Below, piece by piece: positions 3,281 to 59,320 of a DNA stretch of 64,000 nucleotides (the first letter of the stretch is position 1; each line of letters begins with the position of its first letter). This DNA comes from Hydractinia symbiolongicarpus. Its lineage: Eukaryota; Cnidaria; Hydrozoa; Anthoathecata; Hydractiniidae. The translations under genes were made by a program, and so were the position numbers. Where the stretch lies: NCBI RefSeq assembly GCF_029227915.1, contig NC_079876.1:5704001-5768000 (forward strand). Direction: 5' to 3'. A model generated the notes under the pieces. That model was not told the origin of the DNA. It searched no databases and was given only the letters and a program-made list of their open reading frames with translations.

Positions 3281-4300
3281 CTACGGCCAGCTTACAAAAT
3301 ATCTTTTTCCATCCCTCTTCACTGTATTCTTGAACATTTCCATCACAGCTTTGTCTGAATCCCGTTCTTCGTGTTGGTTAATGCCAATTGTTTCCATCTT
3401 CCACATATCTTCCAGGCTTGGTTCAAACAGTGATGGCACGTCTTCACTCAGCATTCTTCTGTTCGTTGACGATTGACTTTCTGTTGAGAGCGCAAACAGA
3501 GCGTTTACTTCTCGATGCCAATTTTCTCTTCCATTTTTCCCAGAGATGATCCACCCAACCTTCGACTTCAATTGGTATAGGTGATCTTGTATCTTCACCT
3601 TTTCGTGAATGATGTCGTCATAGTAATCATTCCCAATAAGAAGAACAAGGCTGTACGTCTCCATATTCGATGGTATGGTGTCTGCAAGTTCATATTGTTT
3701 TGCAATCTTTCTTTTATCATTCAAAGCCAAGGGCATTCTCTGTAGTGGTCCAATTATTTCTTTCGTCACAGTTGCTTTGATCTTCATGTCTGCTCCAAAC
3801 TTTGTCTTCAGTGTCAGCTGTACTAATGGCAGACATTTCTGACTGCGCTCCGCATTCCCAAACGTGTTGACATAAAAATTCTGCATTTCTTTTGGCTCTA
3901 ATCTTAATTGATTCGCAAGTTCTTCGGTGATGAGCTTCCATTGTCAAAGAATATTCGTGACTTCATTCTTGTGTTTTCTCCTTGAAGTGTAACAATCGCT
4001 GTCTTCATAATGACTGTTTCTCCCACTGCTACCATTCCGCTCTCTGTTTCCGGTTTCTTTTTGTGATCGTTTATTTGCTGGAATTTCGTAGGGCAAAGTG
4101 TACGAAGATGCTTGTCTTTTTCTCCACAGTGTACGCAAATCTTCCCAGTCAACTTGCAGTCCCTTATTTTGTGGTTTCTTTTCATGCACCTGAGGCATTG
4201 GTCTTTAATCTGTCGTTTTCTCGATTGAATGTCCGGATATCTTTTACATTCGTCGCTTCGATGTTAACCATTGCAGAATAAACATTGTCGGCCATATTTC
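3281..4300 (-). pseudogene. BEL/Pao zinc knuckles, aspartic protease and A17 linker region, broken
   Basis: Zinc-knuckle motifs (CLRCMKRNHKIRDC, then CVHCGEKDKHLRTLC) follow gag, with a TAA at 4264-4266 inside the first knuckle region. The protease motif is present as FFDNGS near 3935-3950. The frame is lost straight after it, and the normal continuation resumes in another frame at about 3925, which implies a small deletion at the active-site flank. The following 201-codon frame (3886-3281), containing GWIISGK, is the BEL/Pao spacer before RT and ends at a TAG at 3281-3283. Confidence 0.75.
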
Positions 4301-4394
4301 ATTTTGCGAGTTTCATTGGACAGTAGCGATTCTCCTGTAAAGTTTCCGCTGTAGCTTGGCGATGGCGACTTGTAGGCTTCTGATTGGACTCTTT

Positions 4395-5882: not shown

Positions 5883-6195
5883 GTCTTCTGTTTACTATTT
5901 ATTCGCACTTCTAGAATCTTCTTTGATCACAGTTCTTTGAGTTGATGATCGTTGTGAATGATTAATTGCACGTCGTGATTTGATCCCAAGTTTGAGATTC
6001 TCGTAAATAATTAATGAATTGTATCGTTCACGTTGTGTTGATGTAAATGTTTTTTGTTATGATTCTTCGTCCTTTCGAGTGTCTATGATAACGTAATTTC
6101 CAATTCGTGATTCGTATCTCGTTCCTTCCTATTCGTTCTCCTTTTCGTCTTTCTCTGCTAACTCTCTATCTTCTAACTACCCTCTGCTACCAAAT

Positions 6196-18039: not shown

Positions 18040-18841
18040 TTTATTTACTTTAAAGAAGATAATACATATGTTTTACCACGAAAGGCTTGTTGTCGAATGT
18101 CAAAAAACGTGGAAAAAATTTTGCTTATAATTTATCATTTCACAATATCATTTGTAGTTCGGCATGTTCTTCCTTTGAAACTTTGAATTTTTTTAATAAT
18201 CGTAGCAGGTTATTTTATGACATCATCATAAGACGCCGACCTTCTTTGGCATATGACTCACACCTTTTATCAACATAGGTAAAGTTAATTTTTTTCTTTT
18301 AGGGGAGGGGGCGGGGATGGAAAGGTTTTGTATAAAACGGTTATGTGCTTCTCAAGTACAAGAAAATAGGAGAATTATCTCAGCCTCAAATACTTGTAAA
18401 ATATTCTTACCATGGCTACAGCCGGAAAGCATTTAATTACCCTTAATATGCCTAAAGATAGTTAAAAAACAGTGGAAAGTAATTAAACAAATTGTAAACG
18501 ATAGGTGAGCTGACAAGAAAATAAACATGCAGTATAAGAAATTAAACTTTTAATTAAAATTTGTGCATCACACAAATTTTCATATCTAAAACAAAAGATC
18601 GAGCCTACGTATATCCTTAGGATATTCCTAATTTTTAACCCATTTCTCAGCCTCGATATTCTTATATAAAGAACCGTGTAGTTCCTTTTTTTCAAACAAA
18701 GAAAGTTTTTAAACACGAGCAAACTTTTTTTGCTATTTTTAAAACGTGTCTCTATTCTAAATTGTAACAGACACACTTAAAAACAAAACATTTGATAATC
18801 ATTCGAAATACACTTTCGAAATGAACTTTTAAAATTAGATA

Positions 18842-29609: not shown

Positions 29610-30660
29610 AAGTAAAGTTAAATTAACTGGAATGTGGCGGGAAAACATCTTAGCTTACTTAACACATGACATAGATGCCTATTTTGTCGGATTTATTTCC
29701 ACCCTTCAACTGTTGAATTAATCTTCATAAATCCTGGGACAAACGACAGGGCAAATTTCAAAACAGCGCATTTTACGTCCAACTTTGATTTGTTATCTAA
29801 AAAATGATATTGAAATACATCATGATAATTACACTCCAAGATCCATTTTCTTACTGTCATTTAGTTTCTTCTGATTAAGTAAGCCTGTAGAGCTTCCAGA
29901 AGTAATAAAAAAAAATGCAAACAATAATTTATACTAAGATTCTTATCTTTTTATATATTTAATGAAACTATATGACTATTGATAATCGTTAGGTAGATGA
30001 GAATTGCCCACCGCATTTAATTCGTGATTATGCGTGAATTTCTATGACTTCTTAAAATTGTCCAGATTCATCTACTCGCTAAGGAAGTGAAAACTTGCAG
30101 TCTTGCTTTATAGTACTAAAAAAAATATAAAAGTTCAGTTAGTAGAACAAAGTAATAAAAAAGTTCTGGAAACGAGGTTGGCAATTAATAAAAATAAAAC
30201 ATATACTAAACAGCTCGTTGTCAAGAACCTCTTCTTTTGAGTTTTCTTCCACCGTGAACACAAGAATATTTTAATTCGTAGTACTAAATCTCCGGTTTCA
30301 TAATTTTCGTTAATCCTTTTTGTGGAGTTGTAATAACAGTTTGACTATCTCTAACCATAGCACTCTAACATAGACATCAACAAAATTATTTATTTGTATG
30401 TATCTAATTTTGTTTTCAATATCAACATAGCAACCACTTTTGTTTCTTTTCTTGTAAATACAATCCACAAAGTTTGTTGCTTTAGCAATCAATTGAGCAA
30501 AAATAAATATATATAATGAAAAAATAAGTTTTGAAACAACAATTGGAAAAAGGTATAAACATAACGGAATTGATGCTTGTTTGTTATTGTTTAGATGGAG
30601 TTTAAAACTCTAAATTTGGAAAATTAATAAACAAACGGAAAAGAATAGTAACACGACTAT
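29610..30660. other. Non-coding stretch before the LINE
   Basis: AT-rich, no motif-bearing open frame. The LINE homology starts abruptly at about 30665. Confidence 0.4.
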
Positions 30661-30664
30661 CTCA

Positions 30665-33557
30665 TCATTGTGAGCGTAATATACAGGCAACCTGCAGGAT
30701 CAATTGATAATTTTAAAACGTTAATTGAACCTATTATATTGATCAATAAAAACACCAGCAAAGCAGTATACCTCGTGGGGGATCTTAACCTCAATACACT
30801 TGATTACGAAACAAACAAAAACATCCAGTGTTTCTTTAACTTTATATTTCAAAGTGGGTATATTCCTCTCATAAATAAACCAACCCGGGTAACTAAACAA
30901 AACGCTACAGTAATTGATCACATCATAACAAATTCATTTTGCGACAAAGAACTACATTCGGGTATTATCAAAACAGACATCTCTGATCATTTTCCCATCT
31001 TTATCACGTCCAATACAAACTTTGATAAACAGTCAAACCATGTAAAAATAAAAAAGCGAAAAATAAATGAAAATACAATAACATTATTTAAGTATTTATT
31101 GGCTAAGGTAAAATGGGACGACGTGGTAAAAGGGAAGGATGCAAATGACGCATATGATAGCTTTCTGAAAATTTTTTTGGAAGCTTATGATGCGGCATTT
31201 CCAGAAGAAATTAAGTTTATTAAGACCAAAACATTCTTTAATCCCTGGATGACTAGGGGCCTCCAAAAATCTTCCCGAAGAAAACAAAAACTATATGAAA
31301 AGTATTTAAGAAAGAAAACCTACGGGAATGAAACACTGTACAAAAATTATAAAAACCTTTTTGAATTGATAAAAAAGCGTGCTAAGAATTTTTACTTCAA
31401 TGAACAAATTAATAAATACAAACATAATGCAAGAAAAACATGGAATATCATCAAGGAAGTGATTGGTAAAATAAAAATTAGAAGTAATAATTTTCCTTTA
31501 AAACTTGTAAACGACGAAAATGAAATTGAAGAACCATCTTTGATAGCTGAAGAATTTAACAATTTTTTCACTAAAGTGGGGCCGACCCTGGCGTCGAAAA
31601 TAGGTCACAGTACAAAATCCTTTAAATCGTATTTGTCATATTATGATAATGAAATAGAGAAAAAAGAGCTAAGTGAGGAGGAACTAGAAGCAGCATTTCA
31701 TTCTTTGCAAATCAACAAAAGTCCTGGCTTTGATCAAATCAGCAGCAATGTCTTAAAGAACTGTTTCAATGAACTAAAATCTCCACTACTGCATATATTT
31801 AATTCATCTCTAATTACAGGCATTGTTCCTAAAAAGTTAAAAATAGCTAGAGTTGCCCCAGTCTTTAAAGCAGGAGAGGTTTGTAAAGTATCTAACTACA
31901 GACCAATTTCAATACTCCCTTGCTTCTCGAAGATTTTAGAGAGAATCATGTACAACAGGGTTTATTCTTTCTTGAACAATAACGATATTTTGTATAATAA
32001 GCAATTTGGATTTCAAGCAGGTCATTCAACTGATCACGCAATCATTCAGTTGAGTCAGGAAATATTTCAAGCCTTTGATGAGAATAAATTTACAATTGGG
32101 GTCTTTATTGATCTCAGTAAAGCATTCGATACAGTCAACCATGAGATTCTATTAGAAAAACTAAAAAATTATGGCATAAGAAATACATATCTCACATGGT
32201 TCAATAACTACCTCTTCGAAAGAAAACAATATATTTCTTATGACGAAGGAAATACTAACTACAGGATTATAACATGTGGAGTACCTCAAGGGTCAATTTT
32301 AGGGCCACTGTTGTTTCTTATTTATATCAATGATATATTTAGAGCATCTAGTGTCTTAAATTCAATTTTATTTGCTGATGATACAAATTTATTCTTTACT
32401 CATAAAGATATAAACGTACTTTTTGAAACCACTAACCTAGAATTGGCTAAATTGGCTGATTGGTTTAAAGCGAATAAATTATCCCTTAACACTTCAAAAA
32501 CTAGATATACCTTTTTTCACAAACTTAGTAAAAAAGATAAAATACCTCTTAGGTTACCTGGATTAGTTATTGGTCATGTAAACATAAGAAGAGAATATTC
32601 AATGAAATTTCTTGGAGTTCTCCTAGACGAAAATTTAACTTGGAGAGAACATATTAAATTAGTGGAAAACAAAGTTTCCAAAAGCTTAGGAATCTCATAT
32701 AAAGCCAGTTTCGCTTTGAATAAGAACTGCTTAAGAAGCATATATTTTTCCTTTATACACTGCTATTTAAACTATGCAAACATTGCATGGGGTAGCACTA
32801 ATATAACAAAATTAAAAAAACTGCACATTCAGCAAAAACATGCCAGTAGGATTATATTACGACAGAACAAATGTTCCCATTCTAGACCATTGCTAAAAGA
32901 ACTGGGTATTCTTAATGTATGTCAGCTAAACATTTTTCAAGTCCTTATTTTCATGTATAAGATTAAAAATTTAATAGCACCAAATATATTCATTACATTA
33001 TTTAAGAAAGTTCAACAAAAATATCCAACTAGATTTTCAGGTAATAATTTCCTTCGGCCAAAAATCATATCTAATGTAACAAAATTTTCAATATCAAACC
33101 GAGGCCCAAAACTCTGGAGCATGCTTCTAAACGATGAGATAAAAAGCATTCCATCTACAAAACAATTTAAAATTGCACTAAGAAATCAGCTGTTACGAAG
33201 TAATAACGAACAAGTCTTCTTCTGAAACAACACTACGTGTGATAATTAAACGCTTTCTTTTATTTAACATAACATTTAATATTTTATTAAGTTTTTAATT
33301 ATCAATTTTTATTTGACGCTCTTTTTAATGACGGCTATGTAAGGTGTGAGATGATAAGACTGCATAGTCTTCTACTTACTCCTGCCATTTTATTCTACGT
33401 ACGTGATACAGTTATGTATATATATATGTATATATATATATATCCTAATGTAGAAATTTATGCCTGTACTTATGTGTATGTAGAACTTGTATCTGTTATT
33501 TTGAAATAGTTGTATGTAAATTTCTTTTGGCGAAAAAAAAAAAAAAAAAAAAAAATC
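30665..33557 (+). mobile_element. Non-LTR retrotransposon (CR1/Jockey-like), 5'-truncated, with poly(A)
   Basis: A single long open frame (30670-33225), a 3' region of about 310 bases and a run of about 24 A at 33533-33556. The 5' end starts inside the endonuclease domain, as expected for incomplete reverse transcription. The frame has no stop or frameshift over 851 codons, so the insertion looks young. TA-rich microsatellites (33415-33442) lie in the 3' region. I could not fix a target-site duplication by eye. Confidence 0.85.
30670..33225 (+). CDS. LINE ORF2: C-terminal endonuclease plus reverse transcriptase
   Basis: The first 115 residues are the C-terminal part of an AP-type endonuclease: VIYRQPAGSIDNF, then VGDLNLNTLDY (catalytic Asp/Asn region) and ISDHFPIF (catalytic SDH). 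The N-terminal third of that domain is absent. The RT follows: NKSPGFDQI, NYRPISILPCFSKILERI, QFGFQAGHSTDHA, FIDLSKAFDTVNH (motif A), GVPQGSILGPLLFLIYINDI (motif B), and the active site FADDTNLFF at about residues 568-576. A C-terminal region of about 210 residues follows. The GVPQGSxLGP and FADD motifs and the order place it with the CR1/Jockey group. The open frame begins at GTG because the true start was lost. Confidence 0.88.
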   Translation: MSVIYRQPAGSIDNFKTLIEPIILINKNTSKAVYLVGDLNLNTLDYETNKNIQCFFNFIFQSGYIPLINKPTRVTKQNATVIDHIITNSFCDKELHSGIIKTDISDHFPIFITSNTNFDKQSNHVKIKKRKINENTITLFKYLLAKVKWDDVVKGKDANDAYDSFLKIFLEAYDAAFPEEIKFIKTKTFFNPWMTRGLQKSSRRKQKLYEKYLRKKTYGNETLYKNYKNLFELIKKRAKNFYFNEQINKYKHNARKTWNIIKEVIGKIKIRSNNFPLKLVNDENEIEEPSLIAEEFNNFFTKVGPTLASKIGHSTKSFKSYLSYYDNEIEKKELSEEELEAAFHSLQINKSPGFDQISSNVLKNCFNELKSPLLHIFNSSLITGIVPKKLKIARVAPVFKAGEVCKVSNYRPISILPCFSKILERIMYNRVYSFLNNNDILYNKQFGFQAGHSTDHAIIQLSQEIFQAFDENKFTIGVFIDLSKAFDTVNHEILLEKLKNYGIRNTYLTWFNNYLFERKQYISYDEGNTNYRIITCGVPQGSILGPLLFLIYINDIFRASSVLNSILFADDTNLFFTHKDINVLFETTNLELAKLADWFKANKLSLNTSKTRYTFFHKLSKKDKIPLRLPGLVIGHVNIRREYSMKFLGVLLDENLTWREHIKLVENKVSKSLGISYKASFALNKNCLRSIYFSFIHCYLNYANIAWGSTNITKLKKLHIQQKHASRIILRQNKCSHSRPLLKELGILNVCQLNIFQVLIFMYKIKNLIAPNIFITLFKKVQQKYPTRFSGNNFLRPKIISNVTKFSISNRGPKLWSMLLNDEIKSIPSTKQFKIALRNQLLRSNNEQVFF

Positions 33558-39153: not shown

Positions 39154-39930
39154 TCAAAGCCCACCAGAGAGCAGTGCTTTCTGAAACGTATGACTGGGGT
39201 CCTCTACCTGCTTATGATAGAACCTTTGGAATGTGGATTCGCAAGACCAATGCGCCTGCTTGAGAATATCGGATAGAGAGATGCCGATTGCTTTTGCTTT
39301 TGAAGTCGCTGCGGATCTTGTGGAATGAGCCTTAAATTTGTCCACATCAATGTTCCCGAGCTGAAGCATTTGTCTTAGCCATCCCGAGACTGTTGAAGTG
39401 GAGACCCGTTTATGTGGCTTTATATAGCTTACAAGAAGTTGAGAATCGGTGACTTTCCACTTTTCTCTTCTACTTAAGTAGTCCTCCAGGGTGACACATA
39501 CACACAGTTTTTCATCGTTCCTAAACCTGTAGAATTTCAGTGGCGGCCTTTTCTTCCCTGGGCGGCAAACCTTAGTTAGTTGCTTGAATTGGAACATATA
39601 AAAGTCTTCATGTTTTATGAGAGTATCAGTGCTCAAAAAATTTATTTCAGAAACCCTACTAGCAGCTGTTAAAGACAGTAGCATTGCCACTTTTAAACTT
39701 AACTGCTTGTCTGATAAACAGACGTTGTCTGGCATATTCCTTAAATATTTAAGAATCTGTTCAATATCCCAAATGAGAACAGATTTTGGGTGCGGAGTTC
39801 TTTTATTAGAGACACCTGCCATGAGAGATGACACTCTAGGGTGTTCGCCGATGGGTTTCCCATCAATAGGTTTATGAAAGGCTGATATTGCAGACCTATG
39901 TGACCCTATGGTGCTATACTGTAACCCTTC
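39154..39930 (-). CDS. DIRS tyrosine recombinase
   Basis: Open from just after the TAG at 39931-39933 to the stop at 39154. Conserved residues are in order: Arg in TAASRVSEINFL, the HxxR of HSTRSAATSKA, then HWSCESTFQRFYHK with the likely Tyr nucleophile. The start of the domain (SHYNSSWRKWHSWC) lies upstream of the TAG in the same frame, so the protein was originally continuous or used the stop. It catalyses circular-intermediate integration in this class of elements. Confidence 0.85.
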   Translation of the reverse strand, partial: EGLQYSTIGSHRSAISAFHKPIDGKPIGEHPRVSSLMAGVSNKRTPHPKSVLIWDIEQILKYLRNMPDNVCLSDKQLSLKVAMLLSLTAASRVSEINFLSTDTLIKHEDFYMFQFKQLTKVCRPGKKRPPLKFYRFRNDEKLCVCVTLEDYLSRREKWKVTDSQLLVSYIKPHKRVSTSTVSGWLRQMLQLGNIDVDKFKAHSTRSAATSKAKAIGISLSDILKQAHWSCESTFQRFYHKQVEDPSHTFQKALLSGGL

Positions 39931-41145
39931 CTAAAAAAGATGTGCCAAAAAATCCAATATATATTCTATAGGACATCTAGTGGGACAAACTTGTTTTTCA
40001 CCACACCAGCTATGCCATTTTCTCCAAGACGAGTTGTAATGGCTGACAGTTCCTGGCCTTCTGGCAGCCGTGATAAGAGTGGCAGCCCTTCCTGGATGGC
40101 ACTCTCCCCTCGGGTTCTTTAACAGATCTATTCTCCCTGGAAGGATCAGAGGGTGCCTTACTGACATTTCTAGGACTGTTGGAAACCATGCTTGTGTTTG
40201 CCAAGCTGGAGTTATTAGGATCATGTCTACCTGTTCTACTTGAACTTTTTTGAGAACCCTGCCTATCAGAACAAAAGGGGGGAAAGCGTATGCGTAATGG
40301 TGTTTCCACTTGATCTGAAAAGCATCCCTCCCCTTGCTGAATGGGTCTAGTTTCCAGGACATGTAGCTCTGAAGTTGATGCGACACCCTTGAGGCGAATA
40401 AGTCTATGTCCGGTGTTCCCCATATCTGGCATACCTTTTGGAATACTGTTGGAAGCAGTTTCCATTCGCTGGAGTCTGAGAGATTGTGCCTGGATTCCCG
40501 GTCTGCCTCTACATTCAGGTAGCCTGGTATGTAACCTGCAGTAATCGTGATCTCTTTCTCCATTATATATTGCCAAATTTCTTTTGCTATTTTTACCAGA
40601 GTCTCGTTCTTGGTTCCCCCCATTTTTACTAAATATGATAGGGCTGTCATATTGTCCGTCTCTACATGGACTGCTACCCCTTTCTTTTCCATATATGTAA
40701 AGGTTCTTAAAGCAAGGTTGATAGCCTTCAACTCCAGTATGTTGATGTAAAGATCCCTTTCCTTTCGAGTCCATGGGCCACCCGTTTTTTGTCCCTGGCA
40801 AAATGCTCCCCACCCCATCTTGGAAGCATCTGAGCTTATTTTCTGAATTACTAGTGGGGTTGGTGTTAATAGGGATTTGCCATTGTACAATTCTAGATTG
40901 TTCAGCCACCAATGAAGCTCCCCCTTGGCTAGATCTGACAAAGTTATCTGAGCATCGAAGTTGTGTTTTGTCAACAACCCTTTTATCTGTTGTTGTTGAA
41001 GGAACCTGTATTGTAAGGGGGCTGGAAATACTGCTACTGCTGATGAGGAAAGTTTTCCTATGAGTTTGGACAGTTCTCTTATTATGACCCACTCCTGCTT
41101 TAACAATTTCTGGCATTGTACTTTCAATGTTGTAACTTTCGCCAT
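39931..41145 (-). CDS. DIRS RNase H and distal domain (pol C-terminal part)
   Basis: A 404-codon frame. RNase H motifs: SSDASKMGWGAF (first Asp), INILELKAI (Glu), VETDNMTALSYL (Asp) and NVEADRESR (last Asp). The DIRS-typical distal region follows, with DIDLFASRV, YAFPPF and ILITPAWQTQ. It then runs into the start of the recombinase domain and stops at TAG 39931-39933. The frame starts just after a frameshift that cuts it from the RT at about 41150. Confidence 0.85.
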   Translation of the reverse strand: MAKVTTLKVQCQKLLKQEWVIIRELSKLIGKLSSSAVAVFPAPLQYRFLQQQQIKGLLTKHNFDAQITLSDLAKGELHWWLNNLELYNGKSLLTPTPLVIQKISSDASKMGWGAFCQGQKTGGPWTRKERDLYINILELKAINLALRTFTYMEKKGVAVHVETDNMTALSYLVKMGGTKNETLVKIAKEIWQYIMEKEITITAGYIPGYLNVEADRESRHNLSDSSEWKLLPTVFQKVCQIWGTPDIDLFASRVSHQLQSYMSWKLDPFSKGRDAFQIKWKHHYAYAFPPFVLIGRVLKKVQVEQVDMILITPAWQTQAWFPTVLEMSVRHPLILPGRIDLLKNPRGECHPGRAATLITAARRPGTVSHYNSSWRKWHSWCGEKQVCPTRCPIEYILDFLAHLF

Positions 41146-41149
41146 TGGC

Positions 41150-42217
41150 AGTTGTCATTGTCAGAGAATTTATTGTCACCCCCAAAAAATTGAGGCATTG
41201 GGTTGGTTCGAAAACTGACTTGTTGCTGTTGATTAGAAACCCTAAATTCTGAATGAAAAATATCAGAGTATCCCTGATTGGGATCTTTAGGAGTTTTGTG
41301 AAAATCCACGGGGCTTTTGAGAGCCCGAAACATAGGCACAGAAACTCGTAGAGCTGTCCTTCCCAAAGAAACCGAACAAACTTCCTCGAATTTTTTGACA
41401 ATGGGACTGCAAAATAAGCGTCTTTTAAGTCCAGTTTGCACATAAAATCCCCTGGACATAGCATTTCCTTTAAGAGATGTAATCCCTCCATTTTGAAATG
41501 AACATAAGGAATGTTTTGGTTCAGTTTCTTTAAGTTTATTACTGGCCGATGACCACCCTCTTTTTTGTCCACAAGAAAAATTGTACTGATAAATTCCCCC
41601 CGTACATGAGTTGCCCTTTTGATGGCACCTTTTCTCAGCATACTTTGGACCTCCTTGTTCACAAGGGATTTCTCCTCTTGACTGATATGAATAGGGGGTG
41701 GAACAATTCTCTGTTTTGGTGGGGAAAGAAAGGGTATCTCGTATCCCTGTACGATCTTTAACATTGTCTGATCGTTTGTCAGCTTTTTCCAATTCACCAC
41801 AAAGTATTGAGTCCTTCCTGCAGGAGGCAGGTGGGGAATAGGTATTGGAAATAACCTTTTTATCAAAGGATGTACATTTGGGAAGTCCCTTATGTCCAAA
41901 ATCTCTGATAAGCTGAGAAAAGGCACCTCTAATATTGAATTGAAACATACCTCTGCTTCCTCTGTTTCCTCTCCGGTTAGATCCACGGTTGTTGTAGTTT
42001 TTACCAGCTGCGGTGAAGAAACCTCGTCCCCTACCTCTGGTCTGAAATAGAGGGCCTCTTGAAAAGGGTCGGCTGGCAGAATGTGATCCTCTGCTACTAT
42101 TCTTTTTGAATGAAGTAAATAGTTCTTTCGATTTGTTCTTTGACGAAAGAAATTTTGACACCATGTCTTCATATTTAGGACCAAACAAAGCTGGCTCAGT
42201 TTTCTCAGAGGGCACAA
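41150..42217 (-). pseudogene. DIRS reverse transcriptase, catalytic segment deleted
   Basis: RT motifs are seen up to APWIFTKLLK: VNKEVQSMLRKGAIK, TIFLVDKKEGGHRPVINLKK, CKLDLKDAYFAVPLSK (motif A Asp) and LCFGLSKAPWIF (motif B). The frame then jumps at about 41270 straight to FFIQNLGFLINSNKS and FLGVTINSL, so the roughly 30 residues that hold the YxDD motif C are gone. A frameshift near 41150 then separates RT from RNase H. This copy cannot reverse transcribe. Confidence 0.85.
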
Positions 42218-42905
42218 AACTTGATGACATTTCCTTTAACATACTCCCTACTTTCTTTTTATCTGGTATGAAAGACATCAGCACATTGAACCTTCTCAAA
42301 TAGGAGCAAGAATTGTATGCCTGTCCTAGAAGTAGGATAGTTTGATCAAATAATTGAGACATCATGTTAATACTTTCAAGTTGATATTGGTCGACGTCTG
42401 GCGAGCTTGATAAGGAAGTCTTCTCCTCCTCCATGAGTGACCAAAGGCGACACAGTAGCCCCATAGTAAAGCTTATTCGCTGTTGAATGTTTGTGACCAT
42501 GCGGTCTTGATTAAGCGTTATCTTCTTATCTTGCTCGAGAAGAAGTTCTTTTAAGTGCACATCAAGAAACTTTTTCGTTCTGAACATTTCCCGGTACTGA
42601 GTTGTCAAATAAAATCCCTTCCTCGAGGGCTACATTTGGTTGAAAAATATCCATGTATTTATTTGCATAGTCAGCTAAGTCTTGCTGAATTTGCCAACTA
42701 TTTTGTGGCACAACATCAACTCAAATCTTGCCTTCTTGGAGGGTGGCTCACAGTTCTCCTCTGTGTCTGTTAACAGTTCGTGTACTGTCTCCTCTTGTGG
42801 AAGCTCGTTTGTAGGCACACTCTGTTGGGTGGCTTGTGTATTGACCGTATCGACTTGTGCATGCGATTCGGTCTCCGCCATTCTACGAGAAAGACGAGAA
42901 AACAT
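41900..42905 (-). pseudogene. gag: DIRS gag, broken by two frameshifts
   Basis: Starts at MFSRLSRRMAETESH (42905) with an acidic N-terminus. It changes frame near 42690, where WQIQQDLADYANKYM continues in another phase, and again near 42570. It then runs as a 494-codon frame starting MTTQYREMFRTKK, with an Arg/Gly/Asn-rich C-terminal region (RGRGRGFF, RGNRGSRG). This overlaps the RT frame, as in other DIRS elements. Confidence 0.75.
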
Positions 42906-47695: not shown

Positions 47696-48840
47696 ATGGC
47701 AACAGCAGTACCTCCAACAGCATCTTCTCACCACGCATTGATCGCAAACAATGAATATCAAATTAAATTGGTCACGCTTCTCAATGAATGTTGTGACCAC
47801 TTACGTGAAATTTTACATGATCCTGCCCGTGGCAACATGCCAAGGGATAAGAAACAATTATATTTGTCATTGAAAAAATATAAGAAACATTTAAACCATC
47901 TGAAAAGAGATCAGTTGGAAATCGTTTTTCCGCAAGATAAGGAAACAGATTCGGAATTGTTTGACATCACTATTTTATGTGACGTTCTAATTAATTGTTG
48001 TCACGGTATACAAGCACCAATTGGTGGGTGGAGGATAAGAAAACCGCAACCAAATGATTTCAGTGTCGGTGCTGACATCATTCGAATCAGAAATGAGCGC
48101 AATAATGTTATGCATGGAAGAGCAATGAGTTCAGCACAATATAATCAGCTATGGAATGCCATAGAAGGTATATTAAGAAGACTCGGATACGACATAACGA
48201 AAATTAAAGATTTGAAATCTGGTTGCTTGAATGACTTAGACTTATTTAAGATCGAAATTATGAAAGCAGATACTGAAATTTTAAATTTCAATGTTAACAA
48301 AAATAAAGACAGTATTCAGCAAAACGAAGATGGTATTAAACAAAATCAAGATGACATCAAAGCAAATGAAGACAATATTCTGCAAAACGAGGATGGTATT
48401 AAACAAAATCAAGATGACATCAAAGCAAATAAAGACAGTATTCAGCAAAACGAAGATGGTATTAAACAAAATCAAGGTGACATCAAAGCAAATAAAGACA
48501 ATATTCTGCAAAACGAAGATGGTATAAAACAAAATCAAGATAACATCAAAGCAAATAAAGACAATATTCAACAAAACGAAGATGGTATTAAACAAAATCA
48601 AGGTGACATTAAAGCAATTAAAGACAGTATTCAGCAAAACGAAGATGGTATTACACAAAATCAAGATGACATCAAAGCAAATAAAGACAATATTCAGAAA
48701 AACAAAGGTGGTATTAAAGAGAATAAAGATAATTATAATCGATTAGCAGCTGAAGTGGAAATAGTAAAGCAAACTATCTCTTCATCATCATGTGATCAGA
48801 AGAGTTCTCAGTTGGAAGAAACTATAAAAGAACAACCAAG
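47696..48840 (+). CDS. Exon 1: DZIP3-type HEPN domain and 21-residue repeats
   Basis: Starts MATAVPPTASS. The HEPN part includes FDITILCDVLINCC, a PIGGW turn and ADIIRIRNERNNVMHGR. Here R135-N136-N137-V138-M139-H140 fits the R-x4-H motif (polar residue after Arg) of active HEPN RNases. From about 48297 to 48735 six 63-nt repeats encode DSIQQNEDGIKQNQDDIKANK-type units. The exon ends in phase 2 at a GTGTGT donor. Confidence 0.85.
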
Positions 48841-51800
48841 GTGTGTAATTCTTTTTCTATATTGTTCCATCATTAAATTGATTCTGTCAACTTAACATAA
48901 AAGGCAAATATGGTAAAGTAAATAAATTTTCATTCAATTAAATTCCACTTTATCTTGGTGTAACTAAATCACTTTTCTGTAATGATTTCAATGCATAAGA
49001 GAGTCATAAGCGATAAGAGTACAGCAGATTGAAATTATGACAGCACTGATTGAAATAAATACTAAAATGTAAAGTAAATAAAAACAAAGACAACATTAAG
49101 TAAAATCTAAATAACTTAAAGAATGGACTTATATATATTCAAGTTGATGTAAAAAAAACCCAAAACGGAGTTAGGAACATTCAAAACGATTATGAAAGAT
49201 TGAAAGACGGAATGGGAACAGTAAAGTCCTTTGTTGTCATCGTGTCGTTCAAAAACTTGTCATTTAAAACGGCCTAGAAAGAAGATACCTTTCTTTCAAA
49301 AAATAAGATTTTATCGTTTTTTAGGACAATATTTCATACAGTTACTTATTATTCTAATTTATATTTTAATGTTTATTTCAGTTATATACTATTAAAAAAT
49401 TTCCGGGGAGATTTTCTAATACAATTTGAAGATGGCTGCTCGCAGTGGTCTATGAAAAGTGTACAAGTCATCATTACTGAAAATTTTGCGATACAATCAA
49501 TAGAACTTCATGTCGACAACGATTACATTGTGGAAAAAGAAGAAGGGAAACTAATCCTGATTATTTACAATCACATTGCCGAATCTATTAATGGGTTATC
49601 AGTTACGTTAGTTGACAGTGAAAGTAAAACTCAATTGATTCCAATTAAAGGTGAGTAAATTTAGATAATGTATTCTATCCAGAAAGACTTCACAGTGCTC
49701 TTTTTTACGGAAAAAATGAATAAGGAGTTGGAACAATAAAAACAAAACAGAACAAAAAAATGCATTACTAACTAATGTAGATGTGCATGAGGGCAGAGCA
49801 AAAGTAAAACAAGTTGGGAAAGCTATATTTACAAGTAGAACAAATTTAATCTTAAGGGTTTACTTAAAATATTATTCGAACCATAAAAAAACAATGTCAA
49901 GATTTTGTTAGAATAGCAATCATTTCAACGATGCAAGCCACTTACCTCGACAAAAGTTTTACTTTGGCTATGCGAACGCAGAAATATATAAAAATTATTG
50001 CAAAGATTCTTGAAAAATAACGTTTAGTATTCTACACAAAAAATTTAACGTCTCTAGCGCGTTGTTTTGTACAGCACTTTAGATTACAATTGTTTAAGTA
50101 GAAATGTTGCAAAGTAAAATAATTTTGTTAATTAGATATTGCACTGGTCCGAGCACATATGTGTACAACTAGCTATTTTGATGTTAGAACCCACAACAGT
50201 GGAAGAATATCTGAACAGATAAAATGCATTGTAGGAGCAGAAAGAGAAGAAACAAATATTGAATTTATATGTGGTGGTAGCCTGCAAACAATGGAACCTG
50301 AGGAGTACGAAGCATTTGAAAGAGATTACATCCAGCGTTATTTCACCGTCAATGGTAAATGCATGGAAGAACCACTCCAAATTCCACCCCCAATGCCAAA
50401 CGTCACACATTCCTTATTCGCACAAAAGATAAAGGATGTTATAATCGAATTACAACATCATTTGTTTACAATATTTACTCATTATAGCACGAAGGAACAT
50501 ATTCAATTTCTAAAACTGGATAAAGAATTTTCTTTGAGTTTGGAAAGCACAATTACTGATAACAAAAGAATTCTACTTGTGTTGCCAAATTATATCGTCA
50601 ACATTAGATATACAGAAACAACCGACGCAGTAATAATACAAGATGAAGTCAAAGCGGGCGAAGAAGACTTGAAGGAGCTATCTATCATCACTAAAAAATA
50701 TCTTAAAAATGGTCACCTGACAATGGTAAATATTGTAGCTGCACCACATTTCGCAGATATCGAAAATATCCACCTTTGTGTTGACTGCAACTTACTCTCC
50801 AAAACAACTTTGGCTGAGGATAAAAATATGACGAAGTTCTTTTCAAATATTTTGCAAAGCTCACAAGTACAAAATAATGTTCAGGACAACAAGGAACGGT
50901 ATATCAACATAGTTGGTAAAGTCATGTGTTTTATGGCTACAAGAAAAGCACTCTATTCTGTTCCTTCACTCAGTAACAACGTCCACGAACAAATAAGCTC
51001 GTTAATACTTTCTCCACAGCAACTCCGTCATTTATACAACAAGTCTTTAAAAAAAATTATAATCGGTCCTCTAGGCAGTGGTAAGACAGTGCTAGCTTTA
51101 GCACATTTGGAAATAGCTTACGAGCGCTCTGAGAATAGATCGATCATATACTATGTTATTTGGGACGGCAACACATTGCTGAAACGGGATATTGTCAATC
51201 ATACTAAAAGATTTAATTACAAAGCCGCTGTCAAAGTTGTTGTAAAGGATACTGTCGAGTTAGCTAAGGATTTGAAAATGAATGAAGTGCCAACACCATA
51301 CCAGCTATTAGAGTCATTGGTTAAGAAACATGTTGACCAAAACCTGCATCTAATAATTGATGAATTAAATGGAGAGTTCTTTAACAAGGAAGAATCATCT
51401 TTGCTTAAACACTATCTGGAAACTGAAGACAAATTAAATAACTCCTTCATCATTTTTTTCCCACAATCCATTGAGAAACATAGAACATTAATTTCACACC
51501 AAAGAGTCACAATACATGACAAGTACAAGTATGAAGAAACAGGAATGAAAGTATTAAAACTTAACAGAGCAATGAGAACAACCCGGATAATCTTTCAGTT
51601 TTTAAAGGCTTTTGAAAATGAAGTAGAACAAGACAAGGTAACAATGAAGCTTCCCGATCAGCAATCAAAAGGTGGAATGTCCACCCAAACAAATATCGAA
51701 AAAATACTGAATTTCTTTTACAAAATTTGGAAAAAACAACCACAACAGCGGCAAGAGCCACAACGGCGACAACAACAGCAGCAGCAGCAGCAGCAACCAC

Positions 51801-54800
51801 CACCACCACCACCACCACCACCACCACCACCACCACCACCACAACAACAACAACAACAACAACAACAAGGACAAACTACCAGTAGCAATGTCACGCCGAT
51901 AATAAAAGGAGAAGAAGAAGTATTTGAAACACCGGTTGATATTGATGTCGTTGCAGCTTCCATACAAGATGGGGATCTTTCGGGTAATGTTAGAATTGAC
52001 ACTTCATTGAAATTTAATACAGCTCATTCAATCGGTCATTATATTGAAGGAACAAAACCGTTATTGATACATCCGGCAAATACTCCAACAACAGACAAAG
52101 AGTTTATACCAATGTTAGCACTTGTTTTACAAGATGTATGTTTGCATCGTGCAACTAAACGTTTGTTCATCTATAACACAATACCTCAAAAAGCTATTTT
52201 TCATAGATTACTAAGACTATTAAAGATTGATTTTCTTCACTACGACAAGTACACTGACTGGAAAGTTTTAAATTGTGATGATATCATAGTTAAAAATCCC
52301 TTGCAGAGTCAAAATTATAACATGCTCACTACTATTGAGGGAATTCGTGGAGTTGAAGCAGCCGAATGCATCTGTATAATTGAAAGCAATGATTGCAAGT
52401 TAAAACATTTGACGTTAGAAGCAATGTCCAGAGCGACACAAAAACTGGTCCTTGTTTCAGCGTCCAACGTCTACCAATCGGATACAGTAAAATCATCAAC
52501 TGGTCATATCATCAGTAGACTGTTAACTGAACATCTGGTTGAATACAATGTAGAAGTCTCAAACGATGAAGATACAGAAATACCGTTCACAAAGTCTATG
52601 GAAAGTAACAATAAAATAGTTTTTAACATAAAACCACAATATTGGAAATTCAAAGAAATGATAAAAGATTTGGAACATATTGGTTTTCAGGTAACGGATG
52701 AACGCCTAAATGCGCATGAGATCGTTAGGAAAAAGTAAGTAAAATTTTTAAACAATAGAGAACAAACTCTCTTTTGAATAGTTCTTAAAAAAATTTAAAT
52801 TCAGTGATTCATATTAAAGAATTGGATGGTAAGGGTTGTGTTATATTAAAATAAAAAACCCCCACGAGATGACCAAAGTGTGATCATTCACAATCCTCTG
52901 TCCTTTCTTTTGTGAAATTTGTTCTAGAGAGGCAAAAAAAATCACGACATATGTGTCAGGGCCTATTCTGTACTTAATAAAACATTGTAAGAGCTTTCTG
53001 ATGTTAAAAATGTTAACCTGCTGCTAAGCATGAAAATAAAAAAAATTTATTAGACAAAATTTTGATCATCTTATAATTAATTTTATTACGTAAAGTCATT
53101 AGTTTTGTTAAATAATATGATATAAATGCAATATTAATAATTTTAGCCTTTATCCACCTGGAAAAGTGAGCAATATAATTTGCTCATATTTGTCACTTCA
53201 ATCATGCATATTGAGATGGCAAAAGGACGCTAATAAATACACCGTTAGTAGACAAGAAAGTAAAAATTCAACCTGGAATAACTTAGCAACTGACATTTCT
53301 TGCAATCAATACATCGTTGATGACATGGAAATTGGTGAATCGTGCAAGTTTTGTGTAGTTGCTAAAAATCATCTTGGTGTATCTGATGACAGCATTGTGT
53401 CTTATCGTCACGAGTAAGATTATATTCAAGTACTATTCAAAACATTTTATAGCCATGTGTTAAAAAGTATGTCAGGCTTGAGGAATATTAACATGTGCTC
53501 AATTTTTTTAGACTCTCAATCGTCAAGGGTGTCCAATTTGAAGGTAAGAGAAATAGTTATCGTTTTATCAGCATAATTTTAAGTAAGAAAATCACCACAA
53601 CACTCTTTGTCACAAAATAGGCATAAAAAAATTAGCGTGACAAAATAGACAGAAATAAGTGTTGACTAATTGTGTGATTTAAAAAAATTAACATTTATTA
53701 AAAAATTTTCTTGTTTATGTTGTTATTTACCTGTTACAAAAAGAATGCGAAATATTTAAATATTTGCTTTCTTCGTTACCCATATTACAACAAACAAATT
53801 ATTCTAATTATTTGTTAAACATTTAATTTATTACTGTACTTATACCATGGGACACGCAAAGTCAATTTAATGACACTATTGTCTGAAACGAATTTAGTCC
53901 TAGAACCTTTTAAGAATTTTTTTTCATCTAGTGTTGATTTTAAAACAGATCTTTACTAAAAACGTAAGAGGTTATTAGACGTTTTTGTTTTCCTTTTGTA
54001 AAATTTCGACAATGTTTTCTTTCTCGGTCATATGAAATTAATTAAGAGAAACTAAGTGTTATCAAGTAAAAATAAAGCTACTCTGCACATTGGTAATATA
54101 TATCCTAAAAGGAGGCTTCGGAGTAACAAAACATCAAAGGCAAAAGTACTTCCGCTAAAATGTAGTGTGCTGATGTTGCTGTTGTGTCAATAAAAGTGAT
54201 ACAAAACTTCTCACTTGGTATTAATAAAGTTTTCAAGCTTTGTCAAAAGAAAACATTTTGTTCAAATATTGCCATTAATTTTATTACTATCTCGTGGTTG
54301 ATCGATTTATTCAAATCATTTGTTTAGCATAGATTATTAATAATTTAAAAGTAATACATATTTTCTGCATTATTTCTGGTGTAGCCTAGTTAGCTAAGTT
54401 TTTTTCTCGGATATCTAATTCAGTTTTTCTCAAACGAAAGTTTAGACGCAAACAAATGTCAGAGCAAATCCCTAATATTTAAATTCAAACCACGCATTAT
54501 TTATGGCTATATCGTACTTTGCTGAGTTAAAGAAGATAAACTGCTCAACAAGTGTATGCAAAGTGAGAACGTCCTTTTGAGACCTACATTTACCTGCAAA
54601 AGGGGGATTTTTACGAAGCGAATTGGGAATAGCAAATTCGGCGGCTAATTACCAGCGAAATATCTATTTGATTTTCACGGGAAACAAAAAAAATATGTGA
54701 CCAATTTAACATTCTGAGTGTAAGCATTTTTTTCTGGTATTAAAAACCGGATAGTTATTTTAAATTCTAAATAAACAGTTTTCTTATTGGTTAAAAGATA

Positions 54801-57800
54801 TTTTATAAAATATTTCTACCTTTCGGGGAAGCGAATTTTTCAAAGCAAAATAAAAACAAACAAAACTTTGCATGCTCAGATATATTTAGTTGGCGAACTC
54901 GTTTAGCAATACAAACAATGAGGCTGGGGAAAAGAAAACAAAATAAGAACATCGGCAAGACTAAAACACCAATTTTCTCTCTACTCCCGAGAGAAATACA
55001 TTTGACAAAAAGAAATTTTAGCAGAATCAATCGCAAATGTTTTTATGAATCTTTGAAATGAATAACAAAAAAAAAACTACTTTTACCGGTACATGTTATA
55101 ATAAGGAACATTTCAGGCTGTAACGAATATAAGCGTATATTTTGTAAATGTTCCTTCAAGCTTCAAGTTTACTCCAATACAACCACTAAAACTTGCTGAC
55201 ATACCAAATTTCACACCAAGTTTAAAAAAACTATACCCTTTTGCCTTTCCTTTTTGAACCCGTAGCTAGCTTTCGGTCATACTTAAATTTCGCATAATAA
55301 TTTGAAAGTTGATCCCTTTGTTGTATGATGCGAATTCTCCCTGTAAGTCGATTGGTGCACTATTTACAGTAAAACTCTTATAACGACTACAGCCTCGTTT
55401 CTATGTTATATGGACTTTGCAGAGGGAAAAGCCTGTTATTCAAGTTAGTAATGAAAAGCCTTGTTTTCAAGTTACCCACATTTGAAAAATATTGCTAATA
55501 GTAACCACCCAGTGAGAAAAAACAAACAATCATAAGCAAATCAAATCATTTCGTCGTAAAATTTAGACTGATTTTTTCTTTCCTTGTTCTGATTAGAACG
55601 AACAAACTCCCCAAATTTATAGTGTAGCGTGTGAGTCTGAGTTAGTGTTAGGCAGTTGATTTTGATATTTAAAGCGCATATTTTGTAAATATACATCATA
55701 GATTCAATTTTACTCCAACACAAAATCTAAAGCTGGCTTAACATACCGAATTTTGCACCAAGTTCGGAAACACTATTTACATATACCTTTCGTTTTTAAA
55801 CACGTGGCTATCGGCCATACTTAAATTTTGCTGAATACTTTTCAAGCAAGATGCCTCGTACCACTTTACTGTTCCATACAAAGTGGCTTTCCTGAAGTTG
55901 ATCACTTTGTACAAAGTTGGTCAATGTTATATAGTGCGATTTCCCACTGTAACTCGCATGGCGTACTATTAACAGCAAAACTCTTATAACGACTACAGCC
56001 TCGTTTCTATGTGATTTGATTTTTGTAAAAATTACATTAGAAATTTGCAGAGGGAAAGCCTGTTTTTCAAGTTAGTTACAATATAGTAATGAATAACCTC
56101 GTTTTCAAGTTTCTGACATTTTTTAAAAATTATTGCTAATACAAACCATCCGGCGGGAAAAAAAAATCATAAGCAAATCAAAAGTGATTTCATCGTAAAA
56201 TTTAGACTCGGTTGGTTTTTTGTTTTAACAATAATTTTTTCCTAAAGCTGTTGAGTTTGAATTTTTGCAATATCTAAGGCTCGTGCTCTTTTTTGTTCTT
56301 ATAAAGAAACCCGCACAGTTTTTAACCGATCGCGTGTCAGAGAAACATATTTGAAATATTCGTGCAGACGAAATCGAATATATTGAGTACAGTAGTTCTA
56401 TTTTTATCACTATATCATACTCAACCAAAACGAATATGTTTCATTCAGCAAATAATTTTGATAAAATCTGATCGTGTGAGGTAAGAGAAAATTTAATTTT
56501 GATAAAAGCAGTAGCTAGTTTTTATTATACATTATTTTTTTTCATGAAAAACCCGTTTACAATTAACGGAGTATTTACTAAGAGCTGTGTACCTAAGTCT
56601 CGTGTTCTTTAGAACTTGTTCTTATAAAAAAACGATCGCGTGTCAGAGAAACATCTTTGAAATATTCGTGCAGACGAAATCGAATATATTGAGTACAGTC
56701 GTTCTATTTTTATCACTATATCATACTCAAGCAAAATGAATATGTTTCATTCAGCAAATAATGTTGATAGAAACTGGTCGTTTGAGGTGAGAGAAAATTT
56801 AATTTTGATAAAAGCAGTAGCTGGTTCTTATTTACATTTTTTTCATAAGACACCCGTTTACAAGTAACGGATTATTTACTAAGAGCTGTGTAATTTAATT
56901 TTTTTTTTAGAATTTTAACTGAAAAAACTAACAAACTCTTTTTGCGTGCTTGGGATTATGCTCTGTCTTGTTCCTGCAATTTTCTCCATACAATCTGAAA
57001 AAGCGTTATTTGTTCAATATTAATATTTAGTGAAGTTTTTTCTTTGCTCGTAAGAAACAAAATGAAGTCATAGAATAAGCATACTAGCCAGCCTCGGTTT
57101 TAGGATTTATCGCCGTCTTCCCACATGCCATATAGATAAAAAATCCCTAGGGACAAGAGTGCTAGATTAGACAATACTAATATTTGGTAAAATTTTTCCT
57201 TTGTTTTAAAAAGCTAATTGAAGATTCATGAAATAAGCAGACTATCCAGCCTCGTTTCCAGATCTAGCCCAGATTTATCTTTTTGTTATTTTCCCGCATA
57301 AGAAATAGATAAAAAATAAATTCCTGGGGTGGAAAGTGCTAGACTAGGTTGGTTTCTTTTATAAAAACGCATTATGATATCGTAGTAATTGTAGGAATAG
57401 CTATATTTACTTCCGAGATTTTTATTAAAAATTTTAGGGTCTCGACTTTAACTGAAACATTTCCGTGGTTCATGCAAGTAGAATATTTTCTCCTGATGCA
57501 AATTATCCTATACATGATGACGTCAACATAATATTAACTTGAATAAAAATAAATTATTACTATACTTTTTGTTTCTGCGTTTTTACAATTCTTTTTTTTG
57601 TTTAATACATAAAAAATACATATAAAATGTTTTCCAATAAAAAAAGTATTTAATGATGTCATAAGTTTTTCGTTATCATGTTTCATTAATTTATAAATTT
57701 ATAATTTTTTATTCATTTATTATTTTATTTTTAGATATCGTGAAAATTATTGAATCTAACGATATCGAGAAACTGAAAAAATTACTATCCATTCATCCAA

Positions 57801-59320
57801 ACATCGTTCACATGAGAGGTGAAGATGATTACACACCATTGATGTGGACAGTATGGAACACCGACAATACATCAATGGTGGAAATACTCATCTCATATGG
57901 GAGTGATGTTTGGGCGGAAGATGGATTGAAAGAAAACAGTTATCATTTCGCTGCAATTAATGGTCGTCACATAATATTAGATATGTTATGTCGACATGAT
58001 GTAACAAACATCAACCGTGTAGATGTTAACAACTGGACACCATTACATTATGCTGCAATTTATGGTTACATCTCATGTGTTGATGTTTTGTTACGTCATG
58101 ACAATATTAATGTGATGATCGAAGATAAATATGGAAAAACAGCTTATGATTGTGCTGGATGTATGAATGGACAAAACCGGGAAATAATAAGACGAAAAAT
58201 AAAAGAATACGAAGTAAGTTATTAAGTTTATTTAATAAATTAGAAAGAAGAATAAATTTGTATTTTATTTTAATTTGAAAATAATAAGGATTAAATAAAT
58301 GTTTAAATAAATATTTAGGTATGGAATGTTTTTATTTTTTTAAATTTTGGTGCGAAGAAATTAAAAGTTAATAAATTAGAAAGAAGAATGATTTTTTATT
58401 TCTTTTAATTTGATAATAATGATGATAAATGAAAGTTAAAAAACGAATGAAATGATTCGCAATAATAAAAGGATGGATGATTTTTATTTGAGTGGAGTAA
58501 ACTAATTAACAAATTGAAGGATATAATGAATCCAAATTTAAGAAACTTAAGAATAAAATGTTGAATGTCAAAAATATTTTTTTATAACAAATTGGATAAA
58601 ATGAATAAAATACTTAAGAATAAAATGTTGAGGTTGTCAAGTAGATTTTTGTGACAGTCCAAAAGAGAAAGTATTTTTAATAAAAAATAGTGAATAATTA
58701 TAGCTGTTAACAATTCTGACAGCATTAATTTTTATGTATGTAAAAATAATGAGAGGAGATACTGAAAGAGATAAGTATATATTATACCGAAATTAAAAAT
58801 AATAAATTTTATAAGAGAAAAAGAAGAAGTAAAAATACAATTTCGTACCCAGACTGTTTTATATTTTACATCTTCTGAAATTGAATGTTATTATTGTTAG
58901 CATGAATTAAATATTATAGATGTGAAAATATTTAAAATAAAAGATATTTAAAACATTTAAAATAAGAATGCCATGATGTTAAACTTTTTTTTCGTAATCC
59001 AAAATTATTTTGTTCTTTGCATAGCGATTGTACAAATTTCGCGTTATAAAAGGATTTTATGAACAAATTGACAGATTGTCTCTCATTTAGAAGACATGGC
59101 CATGACGATGGCTGTTCTAATACTTAAGTAGCTATACTTTGAAATAACAAATCTTTTTATCTTTCAGGACAGGACGAAGTAGATATTTCAAATGATTTTG
59201 TTTTGAAAAACAACAATCAGTTTGTAAGGTGAGACGGTAATTTATACAATTGGATATATTTCTCTTTTGTTATTTCTATTTTTAACTTTCTCTCATGAAA
59301 TTTATTTATTTTTTAGATGA
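47696..59320 (+). CDS. HEPN - coiled-coil repeat - SF1-like NTPase - FN3 - ankyrin protein (multi-exon)
   Basis: Exons: 47696-48840, 49382-49650, 50136-52734, 53147-53413, 53512-53543, 57735-58213, 59173-59228 and a terminal piece from 59317 (stop 59318-59320). Every junction is GT-AG and every phase agrees (2, 1, 2, 2, 1, 0, 2), giving about 1,616 residues. Domains: DZIP3-type HEPN (about 10-165), six 21-residue repeats (about 200-345), a beta-rich linker (382-471), an SF1-helicase-like P-loop NTPase (about 770-1290) with a polyQ/polyP insert, FN3-like (1339-1427) and ankyrin repeats (1438-1597). HEPN domains are often RNases or RNA binders, and DZIP3-HEPN proteins of invertebrates often carry STAND-like or repeat domains. 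I infer a sensor or effector acting on RNA, probably cytosolic (no signal peptide or membrane segment). The C-terminal end is uncertain because of a tandem acceptor. Confidence 0.8.
48297..48735 (+). repeat. 63-bp in-frame tandem repeat (coiled-coil stalk)
   Basis: About six 63-bp copies plus a degenerate seventh. Each codes three heptads of the form D-x-I-x-x-N-x, giving Ile and Asn every 3-4 residues. High nucleotide identity among copies points to recent expansion or conversion. Confidence 0.85.
49382..49650 (+). CDS. Exon 2: beta-rich linker domain
   Basis: 269 nt joined in phase 2 and leaving in phase 1. It alternates hydrophobic and charged residues (SVQVIITENF, SIELHVDNDYIVEKEEGK, LILIIYNHIAES), suggesting a small beta domain of about 90 residues. 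I recognise no family. Confidence 0.75.
50136..52734 (+). CDS. Exon 3: SF1-helicase-like P-loop NTPase with polyQ/polyP insert
   Basis: An open exon of 2,599 nt. Walker A is IIGPLGSGKTVLA (GxxGSGKT at residues 782-789). Walker B is LHLIIDELNGEFF (D880, E881). A motif LKLNRAMRTTRIIFQFL (about 945-961) resembles SF1 motif IV. TIEGIRGVEAAECI and LEAMSRATQKLVLVSA near the end resemble SF1 motifs V-VI. A low-complexity insert (51742-51870) splits the NTPase into its N- and C-terminal lobes. The first 290 residues form an undefined alpha/beta region with DAVIIQDEVKAG. The closest analogy is UvrD/DUF2075-type NTPases; helicase activity is not shown. Confidence 0.8.
51742..51870 (+). repeat. In-frame CAG/CCA/CAA microsatellite (polyQ-polyP-polyQ)
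   Basis: CAG/CAA, CCA and CAA runs encode a Gln-rich, about 15-Pro, Gln-rich block between the two lobes of the NTPase. Length polymorphism is likely. Confidence 0.9.
53147..53413 (+). CDS. Exon 4: fibronectin type III-like domain
   Basis: 267 nt in phase 2-2, a single-domain exon. It opens YPPGKVSNI, has a Trp in the expected B strand (ILRWQKDANKYTV), a Y/F pattern in DDMEIGESCKFCVVAKNHLG, and ends near SYRHE. This fits an FN3 fold, as in cytokine-receptor-like and other intracellular FN3 modules. Confidence 0.7.
53512..53543 (+). CDS. Exon 5: 32-nt micro-exon
   Basis: Acceptor aattttttag, donor GTAAGA. Reads ELSIVKGVQFE in the inherited phase 2 and leaves in phase 1, which the ankyrin exon accepts. 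Short, but phase-consistent. Confidence 0.6.
53544..57734 (+). other. 4.2-kb intron with internal duplications
   Basis: AT-rich. Duplicated blocks: about 55380-55530 with 55985-56130 (CTTATAACGACTACAGCCTCG), about 56300-56560 with 56635-56890 (GATCGCGTGTCAGAGAAACAT), and a third pair around 57080-57170 and 57240-57340. No extra exon recognised. Confidence 0.6.
57735..58213 (+). CDS. Exon 6: ankyrin repeats
   Basis: 479 nt in phase 1-0. It encodes about four ankyrin repeats: DIEKLKKLLSIHPNIVHMRG, DDYTPLMWTVWN, KENSYHFAAINGRHIILDML, NNWTPLHYAAIYGYISCVDV and KYGKTAYDCA. The TPLHxAAxxG core is canonical. This is probably a protein-recognition module. Confidence 0.85.
58222..59150. other. AT-rich intron with TTAGAAAGAAGAAT words
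   Basis: AT-rich, with local repeats (AATTAGAAAGAAGAAT near 58238 and 58375; AATAAAATGTTGA near 58553 and 58620). No exon recognised. Confidence 0.4.
59161..59320 (+). CDS. C-terminal exons with a tandem splice acceptor
   Basis: The acceptor region reads TTTCAGGACAG. Use of the first AG (59166-59167) gives DRTK and an immediate TAG (59180-59182). Use of the second (59171-59172) gives an exon, 59173-59228, reading DEVDISNDFVLKNNNQFVR in the correct phase. That exon has a GTGAGA donor followed by a short exon from 59317 that stops at once. A further acceptor at about 59440 (tttcattcag) could give a longer basic tail. Confidence 0.55.

Follow-up and report, generated by a model that had tools for sequence, protein, structure and literature searches.

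We analysed a 64,000-nucleotide stretch of the Hydractinia symbiolongicarpus genome (contig NC_079876.1, positions 5,704,001 to 5,768,000 of the forward strand; hereafter the window), in which positions 47,696-59,320 of the plus strand contain what reads as a single spliced gene that encodes, in order, a HEPN domain, a coiled coil, a small exon, a P-loop NTPase, an FN3 domain and ankyrin repeats. Our model of this gene has eight exons with GT-AG borders and all joins in phase, yielding a protein of 1616 amino acids followed by a stop codon. An earlier reading made from the letters alone (the sequence-only reading) had described seven exons; its phases and borders held, and our model differs in the count. 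Exon 1 (47696-48840) encodes the HEPN domain and a coiled-coil stalk and ends in phase 2, exon 2 (49382-49650) encodes a small module that matched nothing in Pfam above the cut-off, and exon 3 (50136-52734) encodes a conserved first part followed by the NTPase. An FN3-like domain lies in exon 4 (53147-53413) and the ankyrin repeats lie in exon 6 (57735-58213); between them, we placed a 32-nt linker exon (exon 5, 53512-53543) from borders and phase in the window copy. The putative last two exons (59173-59228 and 59317-59320), the second of which holds the stop codon, are tiny and were placed tentatively from their borders only. Alternatively, read-through of the exon 6 donor would end the protein at a stop at 58225. 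All of these exons are on the plus strand. When the gene model was aligned by tblastn, a coiled-coil-like stretch with in-frame stops came to light in the interval from exon 1 to exon 2 (49074-49277); it is perhaps a degenerate exon.

The HEPN domain (residues 60-179; 47873-48232) is clearly of the DZIP3/hRUL138 type, as judged from its match to PF18738 (E = 8.6e-20; 71.4 bits against a cut-off of 27), and it carries an R-x4-H motif, RNNVMH, at residues 135-140 (48098-48115). A match so far above chance, together with the intact motif, bears out the HEPN assignment of the sequence-only reading. An R-x4-6-H motif was present in 29 of the 30 HEPN loci that we fetched, the exception being L011; some such motif also arises in 34% of shuffled sequences, so its presence at any one locus is weak evidence. 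RNase activity is predicted from the domain and the motif. Single-sequence AlphaFold2 modelling of the HEPN domain was uninformative (predicted local distance difference test score [pLDDT] 40.7), and a search with exon 1 found no relatives in IMG/VR. Downstream of the domain, 6.8 tandem copies of a 63-bp unit (48301-48730) encode I-x-x-N-x-x-x heptads with Ile in one core position and mostly Asn in the other, as expected of the coiled-coil stalk that had been proposed. Trimeric coiled coils with Asn triads have been described (PMC12933892), and by analogy our guess is that the stalk may form a trimer.

The NTPase of exon 3 has a clear Walker A motif and DE pair, in agreement with the P-loop NTPase originally placed in the middle of the gene, and further motifs resemble those of superfamily 1 (SF1) helicases. 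We aligned 12 copies, seven of which (window included) were at least 91% identical to the window. Invariant across all 12 were Walker A or motif I (GPLGSGKT, 51065-51088), the D and E of Walker B or motif II (IIDEL, with DE at 51359-51364), AMRT in the motif IV-like LNRAMRT (51560-51580), the first T, G, RG and E of the motif V-like TTIEGIRGVE (52328-52357), and MSR in the motif VI-like MSRA (52424-52435). A polyglutamine/polyproline (polyQ/P) linker of variable length (51735-51868), recognised from the alignment and its repeats, joins the two NTPase halves. Outside this alignment, GKS and T..HGSRGTD are found in the copy L066, and MSR is missing from L067. SF1 motif III is GDxxQ; it is absent here, and FFPQ stands in its place.

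We wrote motifs I, II, IV, V and VI as an ordered pattern, which was fitted after inspection of the sequence. The window copy, L058, L060, L062, L063, L064, UvrD and Rep conform to the pattern; RecB, RecD, Dda, L066, L067 and the negative controls Rho and RhlB do not. When the window copy was shuffled 20,000 times, no shuffle fitted this post hoc pattern in full, and two fitted motifs IV-V-VI alone.

Pfam matches to the window NTPase were mostly to generic P-loop families and all below the cut-off (ATPase_2, E = 1.6e-4; ResIII, E = 7.3e-4; NPHP3_N, E = 0.0028). The second NTPase half gave the sole SF1 family match in our Pfam scans, Viral_helicase1 (E = 0.032), also below the cut-off. A match to nSTAND_NTPase5 (E = 0.18) appeared in 1 of 12 members, and neither NACHT nor NB-ARC was listed in Pfam scans of the window gene and family members. 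When the NTPase was compared with UvrD and Dda by BLASTP, and with UvrD/Rep/RecB and RecD/Dda by hhalign, the alignments covered nothing beyond Walker A or chance stretches; in a control, hhalign of UvrD/Rep/RecB against RecD/Dda reached a probability of 89%, confined to the motif I region. Sequence searches of the PDB returned nothing, or polyQ and chance-level matches, with a pre-mRNA splicing helicase-like protein as the best helicase (E = 0.21). PHROGs and PADLOC gave only weak P-loop matches, the best being to a DnaC-like loader (E = 1e-4), and single-sequence AlphaFold2 modelling of the NTPase gave a model too poor to be of use (pLDDT 34.2), which did not show an SF1 fold. Searches with exon 3 found no relatives in phages, plasmids, GTDB contigs or IMG/VR. 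We rejected an ExK nuclease in the first part of exon 3, as L063 and L064 do not preserve its K. Membership of the NTPase among SF1 helicases, as the earlier description suggested, is thus not established: motif order fits UvrD and Rep, but profiles, BLASTP, hhalign, PDB searches and AlphaFold2 do not show it, and we regard the SF1 likeness suggested by the ordered motifs as unproven.

We searched the host genome (480.9 Mb in 76 contigs) for each module. HEPN_DZIP3 gave 108 matches, and none of 14 control genomes matched. The NTPase exon gave 75 matches, counted as 52 copies (window included; 52 out of 120 first-look candidates being scored) and 23 second halves. A HEPN exon was present 1.5-6.1 kb upstream on the same strand in 33 out of 52 NTPase copies, against a chance expectation of about 0.0008 for each copy in a 7-kb span, and the other HEPN-linked copies were 42-97% identical to the window. 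An ankyrin exon lay downstream in 49 out of 52, mostly at about 5 kb (range 0.9-14.6 kb; about 0.0023 expected per copy within 15 kb by chance), a count that drew on 76 of the 150 ankyrin-exon matches; the three copies with no downstream ankyrin-exon match were C15:10001066, C14:6195313 and C1:32302622. The linkage counts for HEPN, ankyrin and FN3 all include the window copy, which is L035 among the 30 NTPase loci that we fetched. Among these 30 loci, tblastn detected exon 2 in 28 (it was not detectable in L058 and L059), and the FN3 exon was found in 29 (the stretch of L064 ends too early). The exon 3 acceptor had the same phase in 29; no acceptor was found in L063, where the position was extrapolated from a partial alignment. 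Splice borders were conserved across the family loci. The sequence-only reading had turned on whether exons 1 and 3 belong to one gene, and the repeated same-strand linkage, with the conserved borders and phases, supports the view that they do. At the genome level, we consider the architecture and the family solid.

Several pairs of copies on chromosome 2 (near 6-7 and 11-12 Mb) have the appearance of block duplications or of haplotypes left unpurged, and L040 and L041 share the same exon 3 sequence. Assembly duplication may therefore make our copy count too high. A 2300-amino-acid frame at C14:6195313 was rejected as a long protein, since it runs into a stretch of N. Four other loci (C14:16064983, C2:32436955, C2:35877216 and C7:19450612) have a HEPN exon followed, at a distance of about 5-6.5 kb and in the same orientation, by an ankyrin match, with no NTPase match listed; they are possibly further members with a more divergent or other middle domain. 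Contig C1 holds many relatives of the ankyrin exon (about 32-47% identity), far more than its four NTPase copies, perhaps marking another gene type that shares the cassette.

Exon 3 is under purifying selection. Its frame was free of stops in 28 out of 30 loci, with one stop each in L038 and L048. Outside the polyQ/P tract, the ratio of nonsynonymous to synonymous substitution rates (dN/dS) against the window was 0.13-0.22 for seven divergent copies and 0.31-0.63 for 20 near copies; among some very close pairs, which have few differences, it reached 0.68 and 0.90. The constraint seen against divergent copies and the open frames agree with the earlier claim that this is a live gene.

The effector position does not always hold HEPN. 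Within the group of copies with 38-42% NTPase identity to the window, none of the 14 on chromosome 2 had a HEPN match within 30 kb upstream, and two further copies, on C1 and C14, had HEPN upstream. In L066, the one chromosome 2 copy of this group that was read, whose NTPase is 41% identical to that of the window, a TIR_2 domain (E = 1.2e-17) lies about 1.7 kb upstream on the same strand. It is followed by an exon-2-like frame (recognised by eye, with no tblastn match), the NTPase and FN3, with an ankyrin exon 5.2 kb downstream. Judging from genome order, TIR appears to replace HEPN in this copy. Members would thus carry effector, NTPase and repeats in this order with effectors that differ between them, as NLR and STAND proteins do, and the order itself conforms to the general plan of STAND-like immune proteins recognised at the outset. 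Two other copies, L062 (with L068) and L063 (with L069), share a two-part module in the effector position (30% and 35% mutual identity), which looks helical by eye and has no Pfam match. A Death-domain reading of the L068 and L069 N-terminal modules was dropped for lack of Pfam support.

At the C-terminal end, exon 6 matched Ank_2 strongly (E = 1.3e-31). The FN3 match was below the Pfam cut-off in the window (fn3, E = 0.0098) and just below it in a paralogue (E = 9.4e-5; 23 bits against a cut-off of 25). Together with the FN3 exon in nearly all fetched loci, these matches uphold the FN3 and ankyrin tail of the sequence-only reading. The ankyrin exon evolves separately from the rest of the gene, because its identity to the window averages about 79% both where NTPase identity is 93% and where it is 45%. 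In 22 copies with a mean NTPase identity of 93.1% (five of them on C6, C10 and C11), mean ankyrin identity was 78.9% (75-83%); in 19 chromosome 2 copies with a mean NTPase identity of 45.1%, it was 79.2% (74-84%); and in seven copies elsewhere with a mean NTPase identity of 52.6%, it was 50.6% (41-58%). Among young copies, ankyrin similarity is thus lower than NTPase similarity, whereas among old copies on chromosome 2 it is much higher. The simplest reading of this pattern would be exchange between copies combined with diversification. The separately evolving ankyrin exon, the apparent substitution of TIR for HEPN in one copy and the unassigned module of two others are new to this analysis.

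We hold, with slightly better than even confidence, that the window gene belongs to an expanded family of modular receptors, intracellular and built on the NLR plan, in which a variable N-terminal effector (a HEPN RNase here, TIR in at least one member) would be joined to a central NTPase and C-terminal repeats. An NLR-like function is likely, and the immune role, which is inferred, gains weight from the single copy with TIR where HEPN would stand and from the separate evolution of the ankyrin exon. In such a receptor, the ankyrin repeats would bind a pathogen or host ligand, and ligand and ATP, perhaps with RNA, would switch the NTPase to another state. Protomers would be gathered by the I-x-x-N coiled coil, and paired HEPN domains would then cut RNA, so that infection would be stopped or the cell killed. 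More tentatively, and with somewhat less than even confidence, we suggest that the family represents a separate class of intracellular animal immune receptor, with a helicase-type NTPase in place of NACHT, at least two effectors (HEPN RNase and TIR) and an ankyrin cassette independently exchanged or diversified across the chromosome 2 array.

Of the other explanations, the one that survives best, though we consider it unlikely, is an RNA-processing or retroelement-silencing nuclease-helicase, whose motor would feed RNA to HEPN and whose ankyrins would only tether, acting constitutively with no ligand gate. The SF1-like motif order would suit such an enzyme, as would the HEPN-SF1 helicase fusions reported in bacterial restriction-modification systems (PMC3710099) and the retroelement-like frames seen by eye in the window; a receptor is the better match for a large copy number, for TIR standing in for HEPN in one copy and for ankyrin variation that does not follow that of the NTPase. 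A shade less probable again is an NTPase that does not belong to SF1 but is a divergent switch of the STAND/NACHT-like kind, which would make the gene a very divergent NLR. Although the weak matches to ATPase_2, NPHP3_N and, in a single member, nSTAND_NTPase5 point that way, DE comes immediately after the Walker B strand, the motif IV-like AMRT has a conserved R, and T...G.RG.E and MSR stand in SF1 order and are invariant in the 12 copies, of which, however, seven (window included) are at least 91% identical to the window. The ordered pattern, written post hoc, was also fitted by no shuffle, and the weak match in the second half is to Viral_helicase1. Finally, a HEPN gene that adjoins an NTPase-FN3-ankyrin gene in a repeated block, the two making separate proteins, is very improbable: AATAAA occurs inside introns, exon 3 has an in-frame ATG at residue 8 and the single-protein reading comes from genome sequence alone, but that Met is K, Q or N in L047, L058, L060, L062 and L064, some conservation is seen in the residues that precede it, exon 6 lacks an in-frame ATG upstream of the midpoint of the ankyrin repeats, the exon 3 acceptor keeps its phase in 29 of 30 loci, and HEPN linkage persists in copies down to 42% identity.

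Several points also weigh directly against the receptor interpretation. Linkage in the genome is not proof of a transcript, and TIR was read in L066 only, with its join to the NTPase taken from genome order. Profiles and structure prediction failed to classify the NTPase. Ankyrin identity was taken against one query and does not tell exchange, gene conversion and diversifying selection apart. The highest dN/dS values come from the closest pairs, and some recent copies may be relaxed.

Elsewhere in the window, a frame on the minus strand (17350-18072) encodes a protein kinase domain (Pkinase, E = 6.6e-18). Long frames at 1956-5891 (minus strand), 30652-33222 (plus strand) and 39157-42629 (minus strand) resemble, by eye, retroelements of three kinds.

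If the receptor interpretation is correct, the NLR plan in animals would not be bound to the STAND switch, the same effectors being joined to a helicase-like NTPase. Such a receptor could sense nucleic acid by its motor and other ligands by its repeats. Near-identical copies with differing ankyrin exons would also offer a direct test of recognition diversity without leucine-rich repeats or antibodies.

The sequence-only reading had not known this combination of domains, and our literature searches, whose reach excluded most subscription journals, likewise showed no description of it. The partners tabulated for HEPN_DZIP3 in one survey are TPR, Zn-ribbon, RING, Ankyrin, CARD, NACHT, DEATH and LRR, with no helicase among them (PMC3710099). 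HEPN_DZIP3-NACHT proteins are reported as expanded in anthozoans (PMC8260672) and pearl oyster (PMC9646362), and expansions or high numbers of HEPN_DZIP3 with NACHT appear in a further report (PMC10236652). DZIP3/hRUL138-like HEPN proteins share with the window family the HEPN_DZIP3 domain with R-x4-H and lineage-specific expansion (PMC3710099, PMC8260672, PMC9646362), and HEPN-NACHT NLR-like proteins, as described, share an N-terminal HEPN, a central NTPase and C-terminal repeats. By contrast with both, the window gene has a non-NACHT NTPase, an FN3 and ankyrin tail and an Asn-rich coiled coil. Metazoan TRADD-N immune proteins are reported with HEPN, DDX60, Mov10 or RLR modules (PMC8195603) and are likewise invertebrate fusions of RNases or helicases to immune modules; the window family has a different NTPase and gave no TRADD-N match in the Pfam scans run. 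The SF1A helicases UvrD and Rep carry motifs I, II, IV, V and VI in the same order as the window NTPase, which differs from them in its FFPQ for motif III, its long polyQ/P insert and its lack of similarity beyond Walker A or chance stretches. A known FN3-ankyrin protein, likened here by its description only, has both modules in one polypeptide, as does the window gene; to our knowledge, it has neither HEPN nor an NTPase. NLR/STAND receptors share the three-part plan, the C-terminal repeats and the presence of different effectors (HEPN, TIR) on related NTPases, whereas the window family, with no NACHT or NB-ARC match in the scans made, has SF1-like motifs instead.

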